Virus record (IMG/VR): IMGVR_UViG_3300029309_000249
Span: 1 to 28,796 of that record
Source: a virus
Direction: 5' to 3' (one strand)
DNA length: 28,796 bases
The first letter of the stretch is position 1. Every line of letters starts with the position of its first letter. Positions 18,579 through 23,904 of this stretch are shown one piece after another. Below the pieces are notes generated by a model. That model was given only the letters and a program-made list of their open reading frames with translations, had not been told where the DNA came from and made no database searches. The position numbers were made by a program, and so were the translations under genes.

Positions 18579-18790
18579 ATAATAATACTCGTTAATACAG
18601 CTATACCAATTGCACCCAAAAAGCCAAACACTCCAAAAGTAGCTGCCTTCATAGTTGAATTTATATAGATTATTTCTTCTTTAATATCAGAAAACTCATT
18701 AAATGCAGTCTTCCAACGCTCATGTGATATGGTTTCTAGCTTTGTAAGTCTCTCTGCAACATCATTTACTGTCATTTTTTTATTAACCAT
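18575..18790 (-). CDS. Small coiled-coil plus single-span membrane protein, XhlA-like
   Basis: A 71-residue protein: helical, charged N-terminus (TVNDVAERLTKLETISHERW ... FNEFSDIKEEI) and one C-terminal span at about 49-71 (AATFGVFGFLGAIGIAVLTS...). This layout matches haemolysin XhlA-like holin partners and some spanin-like proteins. With the holin directly downstream it probably tunes lysis. It overlaps the adenylate cyclase gene by 8 bases and has no clear Shine-Dalgarno, so translation is probably coupled. A second ATG at 18775 is an alternative start. Confidence 0.62.
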   Translation of the reverse strand: MVNKKMTVNDVAERLTKLETISHERWKTAFNEFSDIKEEIIYINSTMKAATFGVFGFLGAIGIAVLTSIII

Positions 18791-20543
18791 CTTGTAACGT
18801 ATATATTTTAATTGGCTTTTCTTTGCCTTTTACAAAAATACTATCAAGTTCTTTAAGCATTATTTGCTCACTAAAGTTACTTGCACTAATGGTATCATAA
18901 CCTATTACAATATCTTCTCCAACTTCCTTTGTAGAGCTTTCTAATCTAGCTGCTAAGTTAACTGCATCTCCTATAGCAGAATAATCAAACCTAGTATCAC
19001 TACCCATGTTGCCTACCACAGCATATCCTGTATTAATACCTACTCCTATCTCTACATCTAAATTAGCCATTTTTACTTTATCTTGTATTTCTTTAGCACA
19101 CAAAACTGCAGCTGTTTCATGATCGTACACGTCAACAGGAGCATTAAATATAGCCATCATAGCGTCACCTATGTACTTATCTACCATACCGTCATAATAT
19201 TTAACGGTATCTGCTTGTATTGTAAGGACTTTGTTCATAATTTCTGTTACTTGTTCTGGTTCTAACTTTTCTGATAATGCAGTAAAACCTCTTACATCAC
19301 TGAAGAGAAACGTGCAATATCTACGTTCGCCACCTAATATCAAAGAACTAGGATCATCTTGTAGTTTTTTTACTTGTCTTGGATCTAAATAATGCTCAAA
19401 TTGTTTTTTTATTTGTTGTCTCAGCTTGTATTGCTGCCTAAATCTAAGGTAAAAGGCTATAGATCCTGAAATAAATTCAGATATTAACGTCCAGGATACA
19501 TCTATTAATAATCCCTTTTGTATTAAAAAGTAGCCTGTCAAAGAAGTAATTATCATTAAAACCGTAGCAATAGTTATACCCCAAGTAATACCTAATATGT
19601 GTAAAGCAAACCAAACTAATGAAACAAAAATAACTAACGAAAAAATTTCAACTGCAAGGGCGTAGTCAGGTATATAGGGACTATCTTGTATTAATATTGA
19701 TTCTGCTAGTGCAACTTGTATTTTATGTGGTTCTAACAAACCTACAGGTGTGGCTACTTGTGGCATGACACCATTAGCAGTCACACCTACAAATACAAAC
19801 TTACCTGCAACATTCATTTCAGATAGTGTTGTTTGTGGTGTGTCTACCCAACTAATCCACTTACGACCAAGGCTGTCTGTTTTGACTGGTGGTATACCTC
19901 TGATTGATATTTCTTCTATACCATTATCATTAGTTTTTATAATGTATGTTTTTACACCAAATAAAGCTTTATATATTTGTGTACCAAAACTAGGTATCCA
20001 TTCGTTGTTAGGTGTTTTTACTAATAAAGGTATTCTACGTACTAATTGATCTATATCTGTGGGAGCAACGGCCAACCCTTGAAGTGTGTGATTGGATAGT
20101 AGAGTAAGGTTTTCCTTCACTCCCGTTGAAATTATACCACCTTTATCGTTACCTAGCACAACGGTTCCTGGAGATGTAGGATACTTTCCTTGACCGTTTT
20201 CAAACATACCTATGACTGACGGAGCGTATTGCAAAGAGTCTGCAAAAACTTTATCTCCACCCATACGGTCAGCTTGTGGAAAAGACATAACCCATCCAAC
20301 GCCTACAGCACCTTTTCTAAGCAAATTAATTTGTATTTCTGCAAGCCTTTGTCTTGGTAAGGGATAACCACCCTCTTTTTCAACATCTTCTTCTGTTATA
20401 TTTAATATTACAAAATTACCTGATGGTTTGGGTGTTTTTATAAAAGTGTCATACACCTTTAACTTTATAATCTCTGTGGGGGTGCTTTGAAACAAAACAG
20501 GCATGCACAGTATTATAAGTATTGGTAATAATAGTCGTTTCAT
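18783..20543 (-). CDS. CHASE2-domain transmembrane adenylate cyclase (class III)
   Basis: Predicted to convert ATP to cAMP in response to an extracytoplasmic cue. The 586 residues show an N-terminal membrane anchor (4-18), a periplasmic CHASE2 sensor (about 25-290, with KVYDTFIKTPKPSGNFVILN and LPRQRLAEI), three spans (about 294-316, 320-342 and 345-367), a short helical linker, and a class III cyclase domain (about 405-586). Catalytic residues appear complete: metal-binding Asp416 (FSDVRGFT) and Asp460 (YIGDAMM), ATP-selecting Lys456 with Ser522, and transition-state Asn529 and Arg533 (VNLAARLE). ATG directly follows the FecR gene stop, so translation is coupled. Such cyclases are common in bacteria beside FecR-domain genes; in a phage lysis region this is exceptional. 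Confidence 0.93.
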   Translation of the reverse strand: MKRLLLPILIILCMPVLFQSTPTEIIKLKVYDTFIKTPKPSGNFVILNITEEDVEKEGGYPLPRQRLAEIQINLLRKGAVGVGWVMSFPQADRMGGDKVFADSLQYAPSVIGMFENGQGKYPTSPGTVVLGNDKGGIISTGVKENLTLLSNHTLQGLAVAPTDIDQLVRRIPLLVKTPNNEWIPSFGTQIYKALFGVKTYIIKTNDNGIEEISIRGIPPVKTDSLGRKWISWVDTPQTTLSEMNVAGKFVFVGVTANGVMPQVATPVGLLEPHKIQVALAESILIQDSPYIPDYALAVEIFSLVIFVSLVWFALHILGITWGITIATVLMIITSLTGYFLIQKGLLIDVSWTLISEFISGSIAFYLRFRQQYKLRQQIKKQFEHYLDPRQVKKLQDDPSSLILGGERRYCTFLFSDVRGFTALSEKLEPEQVTEIMNKVLTIQADTVKYYDGMVDKYIGDAMMAIFNAPVDVYDHETAAVLCAKEIQDKVKMANLDVEIGVGINTGYAVVGNMGSDTRFDYSAIGDAVNLAARLESSTKEVGEDIVIGYDTISASNFSEQIMLKELDSIFVKGKEKPIKIYTLQDG

Positions 20544-21662
20544 TTAATTACTTTGAGTGATAGTTATTACGTTATCGCTACCACCATTTATTTTGATTGT
20601 GTTTGAAACACCATCTTGTATAAGAATTACTGTGTAGGCAGTTCCTCCATCTAAGTCTAGCCTTACACTTTCACTCACTTTTCTACGCATACTAAGTACA
20701 CCACCACTTATTATAGTTGTAATCTGTGTTTCTTCATCTTGCCCAAAGTTTGTACCAGAAATTCTTGTAACACTTGTTGGTGCTAACTGTTCTTCATCTT
20801 CATCTACCGCTAATGCATCAACTACTTGTAATAAATCTTCTAAATAGTTTACATCTAAATAATTAATATCCAGTTCAGTAAACTCTAAATTATCTTCTTT
20901 TAAATAATCTTCTGCAAGATAATCAACATCAAGATCATTAAAATCTAAAACGCCATCTGTTTGTGTGCTTGTGGTTTCTTCTTCTGCAACCACCTCTTCT
21001 TTTGGTGGTGTCACAATAAGCATGTTGTCAATAAGATCTAATGTTAAATCTAATATTACAGGTTTGGTTGGAGCAGACTCAAATACACTTACTGTGGTAG
21101 CTTCATACGGTTTATTTAACAAAACAGTGCCCATAGCAGTAACCACCTCTATTTCGCCACTAGAGAGCCCTAAAGCGTCTGGTAGAAGTATTATGAGACT
21201 ACGTCCCAATTCGTCAACTGTAGCCGTAAAGTCAGTCCCACGTATTGCTATGTTTGCTGTTGGGGTTTTTAAAGTAATGTTTTGTTTGTCAATACGGTTT
21301 AGATTGCCTGTAATAAACCTAGCAGTGCCAAGTCCAAAGGTAAGTGCCATTTTAGACTTGCTTGGATCAGGGTCGTAAATGTATTCATCAATCAGTAATT
21401 GACTATGCTCTGTAAGTTTTACAGTTGATTCATCAAGAAAAGTAATGGCCATACGACCATTTTGCGTTATGGCTTCATCATTACTTTGTATTGCAAACTT
21501 TAAATTTGCATCATAGGGTTTGTCTCTTAATATCTGAGCCGCACCGTTTAGTTCGGAAATATCTCCTATATCAACAGCTTGTGCTTGTACCTTGGTCGTT
21601 TTGAATGACGCAAACAGTAGAAGCAGCGGTACCAGATATAGATATAATTTTGAGCCAATCAT
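20544..21662 (-). CDS. Exported FecR-domain protein with acidic repeats and curlin-like tail
   Basis: A 372-residue secreted protein. Signal peptide 1-29 (LYLYLVPLLLLFASF, cleavage near VQAQA). The FecR domain spans about 60-195, with the hallmark LKTPTANIAIRGTDF (131-145). Residues 239-282 are an acidic Leu/Asp/Tyr repeat (LDVDYLAEDYL, LDINYLDVNYL). The C-terminus (about 297-372) is strand-rich and ends with IQDGVSN, INGGSDN and ITQSN, resembling the Q-x-G-x-x-N pattern of curlin repeats. It is exported, so it is not a cytoplasmic anti-sigma factor; FecR domains in such proteins are thought to bind partners or cell-wall ligands. Its ATG lies 92 bases inside the curlin-like gene. A pairing with the CHASE2 sensor encoded next is inferred. 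Confidence 0.8.
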   Translation of the reverse strand: MIGSKLYLYLVPLLLLFASFKTTKVQAQAVDIGDISELNGAAQILRDKPYDANLKFAIQSNDEAITQNGRMAITFLDESTVKLTEHSQLLIDEYIYDPDPSKSKMALTFGLGTARFITGNLNRIDKQNITLKTPTANIAIRGTDFTATVDELGRSLIILLPDALGLSSGEIEVVTAMGTVLLNKPYEATTVSVFESAPTKPVILDLTLDLIDNMLIVTPPKEEVVAEEETTSTQTDGVLDFNDLDVDYLAEDYLKEDNLEFTELDINYLDVNYLEDLLQVVDALAVDEDEEQLAPTSVTRISGTNFGQDEETQITTIISGGVLSMRRKVSESVRLDLDGGTAYTVILIQDGVSNTIKINGGSDNVITITQSN

Positions 21663-22299
21663 TATCTTGGGTGCTTAGTTGTGAAATATTAAATGTTCTT
21701 GAGCCACCTGTGTGATCAAGATAAAAATATCCACCTGCACTAGCTGTTACTCCAGTTCCAGTATATGTAACATTATTATCTGAACCATCAATATCCATAT
21801 AGTTAGTAGCACCATCTATATTTATAGTAGAGTTTATAGTGTTATTAGAACCCTGGATAATCCAATCAAGGTCAAGTTGTGATGCTAAAGCAGTAGTTCC
21901 TTGGTTTAAGGTAAAGGTGTTACCACTACCTGTGACATCAACATTTTGATTACTACCATCTGCACTATATGTATCTGTTGGATCTACTTGTATAGTAAAA
22001 GAATTTGTACCGCCATCAAACTCGTAAAAGCCTGTAAAGTTATCTGCAAAAATATCACCTAAAAACTTATTGGTTGCACCAATCATATTAATATCTAGTG
22101 TCATACTATTACCGTCTAAATCAAACGGGGTTAGATTACCAGCAGTGCTGTTTAAACCGCCGATAATATTTGATATACCAAGCTGTTCTAAGTCTATATT
22201 TGCACTTGTACCAGATTGATCTACATATATTTCGTTATCAGCCCCGTATGTTGTCAACGCAGTTAGCATCACAATCAGGCTCATTAATTTTAATTTCAT
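21571..22299 (-). CDS. Secreted curlin-like (CsgA/CsgB-type) repeat protein
   Basis: About 242 residues. Signal peptide ends near TTYGA. The mature part is Asn/Gly/Asp/Thr-rich with spaced curlin-like motifs: IYVDQSGTSANIDLEQLGISN, LDINMIGATN, VDVTGSGNTFTLNQG, WIIQGSNNTINSTINIDGAT, YMDIDGSDNNVTY, FNISQLSTQDN. The Q/D-x-G-x-x-N spacing and alternating hydrophobics predict a beta-solenoid amyloid like curli subunits. It differs from E. coli CsgA by irregular unit lengths and a C-terminal Cys pair (CVIQNDQGTSTSC). Position after csgF and csgG makes it the likely secretion substrate. ATG 22299 and 22302 are both possible, with GGAG about nine bases upstream. It overlaps CsgG by 62-65 bases and the FecR gene by 92. 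Confidence 0.75.
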   Translation of the reverse strand: MKLKLMSLIVMLTALTTYGADNEIYVDQSGTSANIDLEQLGISNIIGGLNSTAGNLTPFDLDGNSMTLDINMIGATNKFLGDIFADNFTGFYEFDGGTNSFTIQVDPTDTYSADGSNQNVDVTGSGNTFTLNQGTTALASQLDLDWIIQGSNNTINSTINIDGATNYMDIDGSDNNVTYTGTGVTASAGGYFYLDHTGGSRTFNISQLSTQDNDWLKIISISGTAASTVCVIQNDQGTSTSC

Positions 22300-23137
22300 C
22301 ATTAGATTCTACTCCTTGGTTATGATTTTGTAAAATCCAGAAACCACGTTCATAACCAGTATTTATGATTTCTAGTACACCTCCTTCTATAGCTTTCATT
22401 AAAGCTATGGTTGATGACTCATTTCTTGCGTTACCTAGTTCTATTTCAACTAACTCACTTTCAGCCTCAACAAACCTAAATACGTCTTCTGATCTACCGT
22501 AACTAAATATAGTTTTTTGGCTTAGCACCTCTAGTAAAACCTCTCCTGTAGCAACAGACACCATACGCAAGCTAACTGTAATATTATCTTCTCTATACAT
22601 TACGCTTTTGCCAATACCAAGATATCTAGCTCCAGAACCACCACTTTCTAAATTTGCTTCATAAGAAATAACTGCACCTTCCATAAGTATGCCTGCAAAA
22701 AGTAAAGGTCTTAATGCTTTCTTTTTTTCTTCTTCATTAGCAGATTGTTCTCTAGCACTACGTATTAGTTGCCTTTCTTTGGTTAAATTATCTAGTCCTA
22801 CTCTCTCAACCACTCTAAAAAATTTACCGTCCCCTGCATGTTTTAATGCTCTAATAAGCAGTGCGTTTGGTTGTTGTGTAATAGCTGTAGAAAATAAGGC
22901 AAATTCACTATTGCTTTTTCTTTGTCCCGTTTGATCTGTAAAAGCTGTGGGATATACAGCTACAACGGGACTGACTTTTGGTAAAGGTGCGTTTTTAAGT
23001 TCAGTAGACTGTAAATCTTTTATAGAGACAATATCTTTAGAAAACCTTTGTGCTTGTGTATCTTCAAACTGATCTAGCGTAGAACAACTAGAAAGTAAAA
23101 GTACCAATAGGTATAACGATTTCGGTAACTGTACCAT
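22238..23137 (-). CDS. csgG: CsgG curli secretion channel lipoprotein
   Basis: Outer-membrane lipoprotein that forms the nonameric curli export pore. The 299 residues start with a lipoprotein signal peptide ending in lipobox LSSC (Cys18). Family blocks match E. coli CsgG from memory: VVAVYPTAFTDQTGQ, FSTAITQQPNALLIRALK, RVVERVGLDNLTKERQLIRS, ILMEGAVISYEANLESGG, GARYLGIGKS, RMVSVATGEVL, and the C-terminal YERGFWILQN. The channel-constriction region reads SNSEFALFST where E. coli has Tyr51, Asn55 and Phe56; Phe is kept while the Asn position appears to be Leu. The C-terminal tail adds a Cys pair (DCDANC). The signal peptide is coded within the last 50 bases of csgF. Assignment is firm; use by the phage is unknown. 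Confidence 0.93.
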   Translation of the reverse strand: MVQLPKSLYLLVLLLSSCSTLDQFEDTQAQRFSKDIVSIKDLQSTELKNAPLPKVSPVVAVYPTAFTDQTGQRKSNSEFALFSTAITQQPNALLIRALKHAGDGKFFRVVERVGLDNLTKERQLIRSAREQSANEEEKKKALRPLLFAGILMEGAVISYEANLESGGSGARYLGIGKSVMYREDNITVSLRMVSVATGEVLLEVLSQKTIFSYGRSEDVFRFVEAESELVEIELGNARNESSTIALMKAIEGGVLEIINTGYERGFWILQNHNQGVESNDEIKINEPDCDANCVDNIRG

Positions 23138-23573
23138 CTGCCTCAGTAATTTTAAGGGTTAATGTTATACCATCACTTGTATACTCAATTGTATTGCCTT
23201 CTAAAGTGATGACACCTTCGCTCTGCGGTGTTTCTCCGAATAAGTTATTAACTAACTGTCTTGATAATTCTGCGTAAACTCTAGATTCTAAGTTACGCAT
23301 AAATCGTGCAAGAGTAGAATTTTCTTTTTCTCTCTTGATTTCATCTTGTAAAGCTTTTATTTCTTCTTTTATTGTAAGTTTACGGGTATATTCTTGATTT
23401 TCTATAGTCAAATAATGACTGGAAGTTCCTATGCCACTAAAACTAGGTGACTTAAATTTGTGTGTAATAGTATCTGCCCAAAGAGGGTTTGTTAAAATTA
23501 CAAGAAAGAAAAATATTAAGAGCAGTCCTGCAATTCTATATACCCAAATACTATCAGTCTTTTCTTTGGTCAT
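23088..23573 (-). CDS. csgF: CsgF-like curli assembly factor
   Basis: Periplasmic/surface factor that plugs and extends the CsgG pore in curli systems. From ATG 23573 it has 161 residues: a signal peptide with an 18-residue apolar core (cleavage near LWA-DT), then KFKSPSFSGIGTSSHYL, which matches the CsgF N-terminal NPSFGG...L motif that inserts into CsgG; a helical region (about 60-115, ending SRQLVNNLFGE); and a strand-rich C-terminus with the family's DGITLTLKITEADGTVTEI. An in-frame TTG at 23591 is a weaker start. It overlaps the upstream gene by 20 bases and csgG by 50. Adjacent csgG makes the call much stronger than the sequence alone. Confidence 0.85.
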   Translation of the reverse strand: MTKEKTDSIWVYRIAGLLLIFFFLVILTNPLWADTITHKFKSPSFSGIGTSSHYLTIENQEYTRKLTIKEEIKALQDEIKREKENSTLARFMRNLESRVYAELSRQLVNNLFGETPQSEGVITLEGNTIEYTSDGITLTLKITEADGTVTEIVIPIGTFTF

Positions 23574-23904
23574 CTCTGTCTGCCTTTGCAATTTTATTAC
23601 TGTTTATTAGTTGTGGTACGCCTAATATTGTTTTTATTAAAGTATCTTGTCTAATAATTTCATTATCTAAACTACGCACCCTATCTATTAATGCTACCAA
23701 AATACCATGTTGAGAATCAAGTTTTGTACCTAATCTTTCTTCTATAGCACTAATTTGTTGTGCAACCTTTTCATCAACAATATCTAATTTTTGCTCCATA
23801 CCATCAACAATACGAATGACTAACTTGTATATAAACCAACCTAGACCTATTGCAGCTGCTATGGGAAATCCGACCTCTTGTATGACAGTAACGGCTGATT
23901 CCAT
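23554..23904 (-). CDS. Single-span membrane protein with coiled coil, holin-like
   Basis: A 116-residue protein: a short polar N-terminus, one span at about 11-32 (GFPIAAAIGLGWFIYKLVI), then a long charged coiled coil (about 36-95) and a basic tail. The N-terminus ESAVTVIQEVGFPIAAAIGL resembles small phage proteins of the BhlA/YvrJ holin-like kind, but it lacks a second span. It lies between the thermonuclease and csgF with a 1-base overlap (TAATG) and a 20-base overlap. A role in lysis or in the envelope module is inferred from position. Confidence 0.62.
   Translation of the reverse strand: MESAVTVIQEVGFPIAAAIGLGWFIYKLVIRIVDGMEQKLDIVDEKVAQQISAIEERLGTKLDSQHGILVALIDRVRSLDNEIIRQDTLIKTILGVPQLINSNKIAKADRDDQRKD

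Follow-up and report, generated by a model that had tools for sequence, protein, structure and literature searches.

A viral FecR-domain protein with an acidic repeat and a curlin-like C-terminal tail, encoded between curli genes and a CHASE2 cyclase

The FecR-domain proteins of the phage curli module combine a conserved acidic repeat with a C-terminal beta domain whose last strand is curlin-like, a feature that appears to be new, although modest. We analyzed one of these proteins, from a marine phage whose virus record is 28,796 bases long; the whole of this stretch is called the window hereafter. The FecR protein is specified by an open reading frame (ORF) of 372 amino acids on the minus strand at 20544–21662, as given by the ORF list and its translation; the plus strand of this segment is stop-rich in frame 1. 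The window also carries phage genes for a lysozyme, a primase-polymerase, and a PDDEXK nuclease, as well as one for a structural protein whose closest matches are found in phage DSL-LC04, Roseobacter phages, and Pelagibacter phage HTVC023P (33–41% identity).

The genes for CsgF, CsgG, a curlin-like protein, FecR, and a CHASE2 cyclase follow one another in this order on the same strand, and all features described below lie on the minus strand. CsgF (23088–23591; these are the limits of the ORF, and the true start may lie inside) matches Pfam CsgF with an E-value of 3.6e-14. The outer-membrane curli pore CsgG (22238–23137) matches Pfam CsgG at 1.5e-45 and the NCBIfam CsgG model at 1.1e-54, the latter under the curated cut-off. 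The curlin-like subunit (21571–22302) reaches Pfam Curlin_rpt only below the cut-off (E = 0.095), and its homologues at other loci are also located between CsgG and FecR. The adenylate/guanylate cyclase (18783–20543) contains a CHASE2 domain (Pfam, 2.7e-25) and a Guanylate_cyc domain (1.7e-20). Upstream of CsgF, at 23554–23904, there is a protein of 116 amino acids that matches only PHROGs of unknown function, with no Pfam or NCBIfam match. Read by eye, it has a hydrophobic start and a coiled-coil look. A histidine kinase has been reported in the literature at this place, but 116 residues seem too few for a kinase, and the protein is possibly holin-like.

The assignment of the window to the known pelagiphage-type curli (T8SS) module with FecR and a cyclase is well supported. 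CsgF, CsgG, curlin, FecR, and adenylate cyclase were described in pelagiphages by Wittmers et al. in 2022 (PMC9599517), and the T8SS module reported there has the same content in the same order: CsgF, CsgG, curlin (CsgA/B), FecR, optionally a second curlin, and adenylate cyclase. Earlier reports on the phage curli module also exist (PMC7029224, PMC9004378). Because a module with FecR and an adenylate cyclase is thus in print, the system itself is not new. In PMC9599517, the FecR protein is labelled as an iron-dependent or ferric citrate regulator, and its main text, as far as accessible, uses none of the terms CHASE2, curlin, and C-terminal. The preliminary description of this DNA had seen no earlier account of a FecR–curlin fusion; this holds for the curlin-like tail, of which we found no account in literature that largely excluded subscription journals, and not for the module around it.

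To place the window among its relatives, viral sequences were scanned with FecR queries, and the best 80 of 597 and the best 80 of 305 relatives were retained; adding two phage records and the piece from the window gives 163 loci. CsgF, CsgG, and curlin lie upstream of FecR in 116 of the 117 loci with at least 2.8 kb of upstream sequence. A recognised curlin gene is the next one after FecR, by position order, in 39 of the 163 loci, a count in which shorter curlins went unlabelled. Phages HTVC008M and Melnitz have this second curlin, and the window has none between FecR and the cyclase. In HTVC008M, the second curlin (locus L002, 6989–8311) contains a PA14 domain (E = 2.7e-6) in addition to curlin repeats (E = 5.2e-8), and it is perhaps a ligand-binding fibre subunit. 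Over 92 nt of the window (21571–21662), one frame encodes the FecR signal peptide and another the last part of the curlin-like protein. Among 71 window-lineage loci, 55 have an overlap of 92 nt and 12 have one of 86 nt.

On its other side, the stop codon of the FecR gene directly abuts the ATG of the cyclase gene, and both genes are co-directional. Where a viral locus extends for at least 3.5 kb downstream of FecR, a CHASE2-cyclase homologue follows in 88 of 89 cases, so the co-occurrence of FecR with CHASE2 anticipated in the preliminary description is borne out. Genome contigs of bacteria were also searched with a FecR alignment, and the best 80 of 286 loci were kept. Fifteen of them (L164–L178) have a phage-type FecR, and several of these, judged by reading, are probably phage contigs binned with bacteria; the other 65 were found by FecR alone. 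Among these 65 loci without curli, 34 have a cyclase homologue, which lies within 400 nt of FecR in 23 loci and on the same strand in 18 of the 23. Eight of the 34 homologues were put to Pfam; all eight contain CHASE2, with a cyclase output domain in six and a SpoIIE phosphatase in two. The FecR–CHASE2 gene pair is therefore general and common in bacteria that lack curli at the locus, a conclusion that is well supported. The two SpoIIE cases (L186 and L192) are Pelagibacteraceae genome records, in which FecR-domain proteins are encoded near CHASE2-SpoIIE phosphatases, and a SAR11 host may accordingly own a related signalling pair.

Characterized systems provide partial parallels to this pair. 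The BiofilmReg operon of Burkholderia (PMC5192318) also encodes a periplasmic FecR-domain protein beside a CHASE2 sensor. It differs from the phage module in that its FecR carries LysM, its CHASE2 sits on a histidine kinase, the biofilm defect comes from the response regulator of the operon, and the operon as described there has no curli genes. In Sinorhizobium meliloti, a cyclase without its CHASE2 makes cAMP constitutively (PMC5498481) and sensing goes via the outer-membrane barrel NsrA (PMC13001267), which together indicate that CHASE2 can listen to the outer membrane. According to the part of PMC5498481 available, a role in signal perception is unsupported for SMc02177, a FecR-domain protein of the cAMP regulon, and for two others.

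The window FecR is covered almost entirely by phrog_37870, a PHROGs family of unknown function (E = 7.6e-68, residues 13–372). Residues 1–29, ending in AQA (21576–21662), look like a signal peptide as read from the sequence, in agreement with the preliminary description. The Pfam FecR domain (PF04773) matches at residues 66–151 with an E-value of 9.2e-10 and 39.3 bits, above the curated cut-off of 24. This match includes LKTPTANIAIRGTDF, which had already been taken as the hallmark of the domain, and PF04773 is found in 23 of 23 aligned family members (Pfam, E up to 1). An AlphaFold2 model based on 59 aligned sequences has a good FecR fold, a low-confidence middle, and a confident tail. In the FecR fold (residues 30–192, 21087–21575), ten-residue blocks between residues 31 and 190 have pLDDT values of 66–92, and model residues 59–193 superimpose on PupR (6ovk) with a VIA Z of 13.9 and an rmsd of 2.3 over 117 aligned residues. 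A further resemblance was observed between residues 29–123 (21294–21578) and 5ix9 (VIA Z 9.8, rmsd 2.4, 72 aligned), a cell-surface anchoring domain named as an antifreeze protein in the PDB sequence search.

The fold is shared with FecR anti-sigma regulators, namely PupR (6ovk) and those of Parabacteroides (4m0n and 4m0h), at VIA Z values of 12.6–13.9. In contrast to them, the phage FecR showed no anti-sigma N-domain and no STN-like part; it begins with a signal peptide-like segment instead and has an acidic repeat and a tail in addition. The acidic repeat described earlier is present as a Leu/Asp repeat at about residues 237–296 (20775–20954). One third of its residues are Asp or Glu, its net charge is −19, and its ten-residue blocks have pLDDT values of 39–51. 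Its mean identity is nevertheless 0.78 when the window is compared with its lineage, and 0.83 among members of the myophage lineage. Conservation in spite of low model confidence suggests a binding segment or a tether.

The C-terminal beta domain comprises residues 297–372 (20547–20774) and is supported by an AlphaFold2 model of residues 295–372 alone. Its last part, residues 343–372 (20547–20636), is the curlin-like stretch, which consists of one minimal curli repeat and a terminal N-x5-Q strand. The motifs that had drawn attention to this end, QDGVSN, NGGSDN, and TQSN, are located at residues 349–354, 359–364, and 369–372, respectively. The minimal curli repeat has been published as X6QXGX2NX10 (PMC3521004). 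It is found within the last 45 residues in 70 of 70 distinct FecRs of the window lineage, the window's own included; these proteins are at least 79% identical to that of the window over the best segment, and as close relatives they do not represent independent events. The corresponding counts are 2/15 for FecRs binned in metagenome-assembled genomes (MAGs), 0/70 for other bacterial FecRs, and 0/65 for FecRs of the myophage lineage, which belong to the same module. Counted over whole sequences, the pattern has a frequency of 10/1098 among other bacterial ORFs and of 40/1102 among the unlabelled ORFs at the curli loci, a set that includes some curlins without a label. The 150 FecRs contain 76 sites in 76 proteins, never two in one FecR, and four of the 76 are outside the tail. 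The sole match in the myophage lineage is near the N-terminus of the Melnitz FecR, outside the tail, as are three of the five matches in MAG FecRs.

A second feature of the C-terminus extends across both lineages. The ending [hydrophobic]x[hydrophobic]xQ is shared by 145 of the 147 module FecRs whose C-terminus is intact, as against one of 67 other bacterial FecRs; the background is 13/1039 for other bacterial ORFs and 32/1029 for unlabelled ORFs of the curli loci, and ORFs cut by a contig end were excluded from all C-terminal counts. The two exceptions are L137, a truncated ORF, and L176, the FecR of which has no terminal Gln. The same ending is used by curlins of the groups Cur2m (32/32), Cur2h (32/53), and Cur1 (5/73). 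In all 123 complete viral FecRs, Asn or Ser is located six residues before the terminal Gln, and Gln370 is invariant across 59 aligned FecRs. The stricter pattern [NS]x[hyd]x[hyd]xQ is present in 140 of the 147 FecRs, including 8 of 14 MAG-binned ones, and six of the seven failures are deeper MAG loci. It is absent from all 158 curlins of the curli loci, and the terminal strand of FecR is therefore not simply the end of its partner. Within the window lineage, identity is higher for residues 343–372 (0.80) than for residues 297–342 (0.59), whereas the order is reversed in the myophage lineage (0.68 and 0.81). Since the FecRs are relatives of one another, the counts given here do not stand for independent cases. 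The alignments consist of representatives (A1, 23 rows; A2 and A3, 59 rows each); A2 omits the viral loci L074 and L029 of 61 candidates and the MAG loci L167, L169, L174, L175, and L176.

Profile comparisons give a weaker picture. A hidden Markov model of the curlin unit scored 6.1 bits on the window tail, a value reached by six of 1000 shuffles of that tail. The window score was equalled or exceeded by 4 of 125 FecRs (the window's copy included), 33 of 128 curlins, 21 of 1033 unlabelled "other" ORFs, and none of 1088 other bacterial ORFs. Since the 15 listed of the 21 "other" ORFs resemble unlabelled second curlins, that background is not clean, and we gave more weight to the bacterial ORFs. 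The curlin-like spacing exceeds what composition explains, modestly so for the window alone. Pfam Curlin_rpt (PF07012) gave no match to any of the 23 family members when E-values up to 1 were allowed, nor to the isolated tail at E up to 10. No tandem curli repeats were found in the 150 FecRs, each of which has one copy at most. In a profile–profile comparison of the tail with three curlin alignments, the check proposed in the preliminary description, hhalign returned probabilities of 3.3, 9.2, and 1.4% (scores 20.0, 23.1, and 18.2). For none of the three alignments did any of 40 column-shuffled decoys reach the score; however, the controls gave 20.1 for CsgF, 15.9 for CsgG, and 15.3 for AC. 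Because the CsgF control scores like the curlins, we do not count this comparison as evidence of homology.

The predicted structure of the tail is not recognisable as a curlin solenoid. Residues 295–372 alone were modeled as a compact six-strand domain with a pLDDT of 86.8 and a pTM of 0.74. The strands are at 314–319, 322–328, 332–338, 343–349, 352–358, and 365–370 in protein numbering, and their short turns suggest an antiparallel meander. The best Foldseek match in the PDB had an E-value of 0.15, far from the threshold of 0.001, and a VIA search gave none above Z 3.5. The non-significant neighbours include alpha-crystallin and lipid-binding beta domains, which comes close to the unrelated fold that the preliminary description had named as evidence against a curlin-like end. 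Curlin and CsgC chains are absent among the 50 structure matches listed, an absence that excludes nothing. When the tail profile was compared with PDB sequences, 14 matches were obtained at E up to 10, the best at 0.008. They are mostly entries named scIg12, dIG14, and Pizza6, which are designed proteins, together with a U32 peptidase and a glutamine transporter protein, and all were treated as chance.

Taken with the single literal repeat, these results leave the earlier claim of a curlin-like end standing in part. The window tail shares with CsgA/CsgB (PF07012) one X6QXGX2NX10 unit at the C-terminus, throughout the window lineage, but it differs from them in lacking tandem repeats and a Pfam match and in being predicted as a compact domain. 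An outright FecR–curlin fusion was rejected on the Pfam result and the weak profile score; that term is too strong, and "FecR with a curlin-like tail" fits.

Two Caulobacteraceae MAG contigs (L172, 3052–9106; L173, 3089–9106) carry CsgF, CsgG, two curlins, a tailed FecR, and a cyclase, and the presence of CHASE2 in the L172 cyclase was checked. The neighbouring genes, by reading, are apparently chromosomal, and this cluster may be a cellular counterpart related to the phage module. The tail profile, in which both L172 and L173 are included by construction, matched 2 of 390 genomes of this family, which are those same two genomes. It matched one of 299 genomes in a sample of the order (one of the two again) and 2 of 385 in a sample of the class (one of the two and a spurious match). 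The latter, a tail match in L246 (E = 0.0035), was dropped, as the 360-residue frame reads like an unrelated membrane protein. These counts indicate that the tail is rare in the sampled cells and common in the searched viral contigs.

The gene content and order, the domain identities, the conserved three-part architecture, and the curlin-like motifs of the tail are direct observations, and several roles for the protein may be considered on this basis. We tentatively favour, at slightly less than an even chance, a soluble periplasmic adaptor that feeds the state of curli export or assembly to the cyclase through CHASE2 and the curlin-like tail. FecR would be exported to the periplasm, where its FecR domain would partner CHASE2 in the product of the adjoining gene, the cyclase. 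The acidic repeat may serve as a flexible tether. The C-terminal beta domain, ending in the curlin-like strand, would face either the curlin subunit or the CsgG pore, and cyclase activity would change with the state of export or assembly. In favour of this adaptor are the constancy of the cyclase downstream and of the curli genes upstream, the FecR–CHASE2 pairs of bacteria, the parallels in Burkholderia and S. meliloti, and the repeat and terminal strand of the tail. The absence of the curli repeat from myophage tails, the absence of the stricter terminal motif from the 158 curlins, the Pfam and hhalign results, and the compact fold count against it. So do the S. meliloti result on SMc02177 and the report, in the part of PMC9004378 available, that cell clumping was not observed with Melnitz, which carries this module. 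A narrower version, which we consider unlikely, regards the tail as a dedicated curlin mimic, built of one curli-type strand module, which would join or cap nascent curlin or act as a CsgG pseudo-substrate and report to the CHASE2 cyclase via FecR.

The same FecR–CHASE2 signalling pair could instead have a tail that is an ordinary small beta domain binding, for example, the cell wall or an envelope protein, its curlin look arising by convergence of amphipathic strands with Asn/Gln turns. We regard this as a serious possibility, although somewhat doubtful. The compact, confidently predicted domain, the missing Pfam curlin match, the 65 of 65 myophage-lineage tails without the repeat, and a profile score comparable with the CsgF control all agree with it. 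It does not readily account for the repeat in every window-lineage tail, the better conservation of the curlin-like part than of the tail remainder in that lineage, or the terminal N/S-x5-Q of all complete viral FecRs; moreover, only two curli-bearing genomes of the 390 matched the tail profile, both of which are in it. The published label of iron (ferric citrate) regulator draws on the Pfam FecR match and the fold match to the anti-sigma regulator PupR, but it is a poor fit. With E-values up to 1 allowed, Pfam listed neither an anti-sigma nor an STN-like domain for any of the 23 members (the other listings there are AraC_N in one member, E = 0.17, and DUF3284 in one, E = 0.28). Twenty of the 33 ORFs of the window, a record that may be partial, were scanned with Pfam, and none of these matched an ECF sigma factor or a TonB receptor; the partner of FecR is a CHASE2 cyclase. 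We reject this label on the Pfam domain result for the 23 members, and it is hardly credible as the function.

Two further roles connect FecR with the pore, and both are improbable to the same degree. FecR might itself be exported through CsgG and become a minor fibre subunit or a CsgB-like nucleator, as its signal peptide-like start, the curlin-like repeat at its end, and the lack in the window of the second curlin that two phage records have between these genes would allow. However, it has one repeat where most scanned curlins have several stretches, a folded FecR domain would need to pass a narrow pore, and its constant neighbour is the CHASE2 cyclase. Alternatively, FecR might gate CsgG in place of the missing CsgE, its curlin-like strand being a pseudo-substrate that is displaced by curlin, possibly with a link to lysis control. 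CsgE is unreported in these modules in the accessible part of PMC9599517, curli genes were proposed to regulate lysis in Melnitz (PMC9004378), and the terminal strand is nearly invariant; against this, contact with CsgG is hypothetical, and the Pfam matches of FecR include none like CsgE.

The literature available on the curli genes of marine phages has proposed roles in sibling capture, uptake, and lysis control. By linking FecR with CHASE2 instead of iron, and by noting its curlin-like tail, the present analysis turns a vaguely regulatory gene into a concrete, testable hypothesis of envelope signalling. If the tail were indeed a curlin mimic, the module would connect amyloid export with cAMP through a phage-encoded circuit in hosts that are reported to be without curli.
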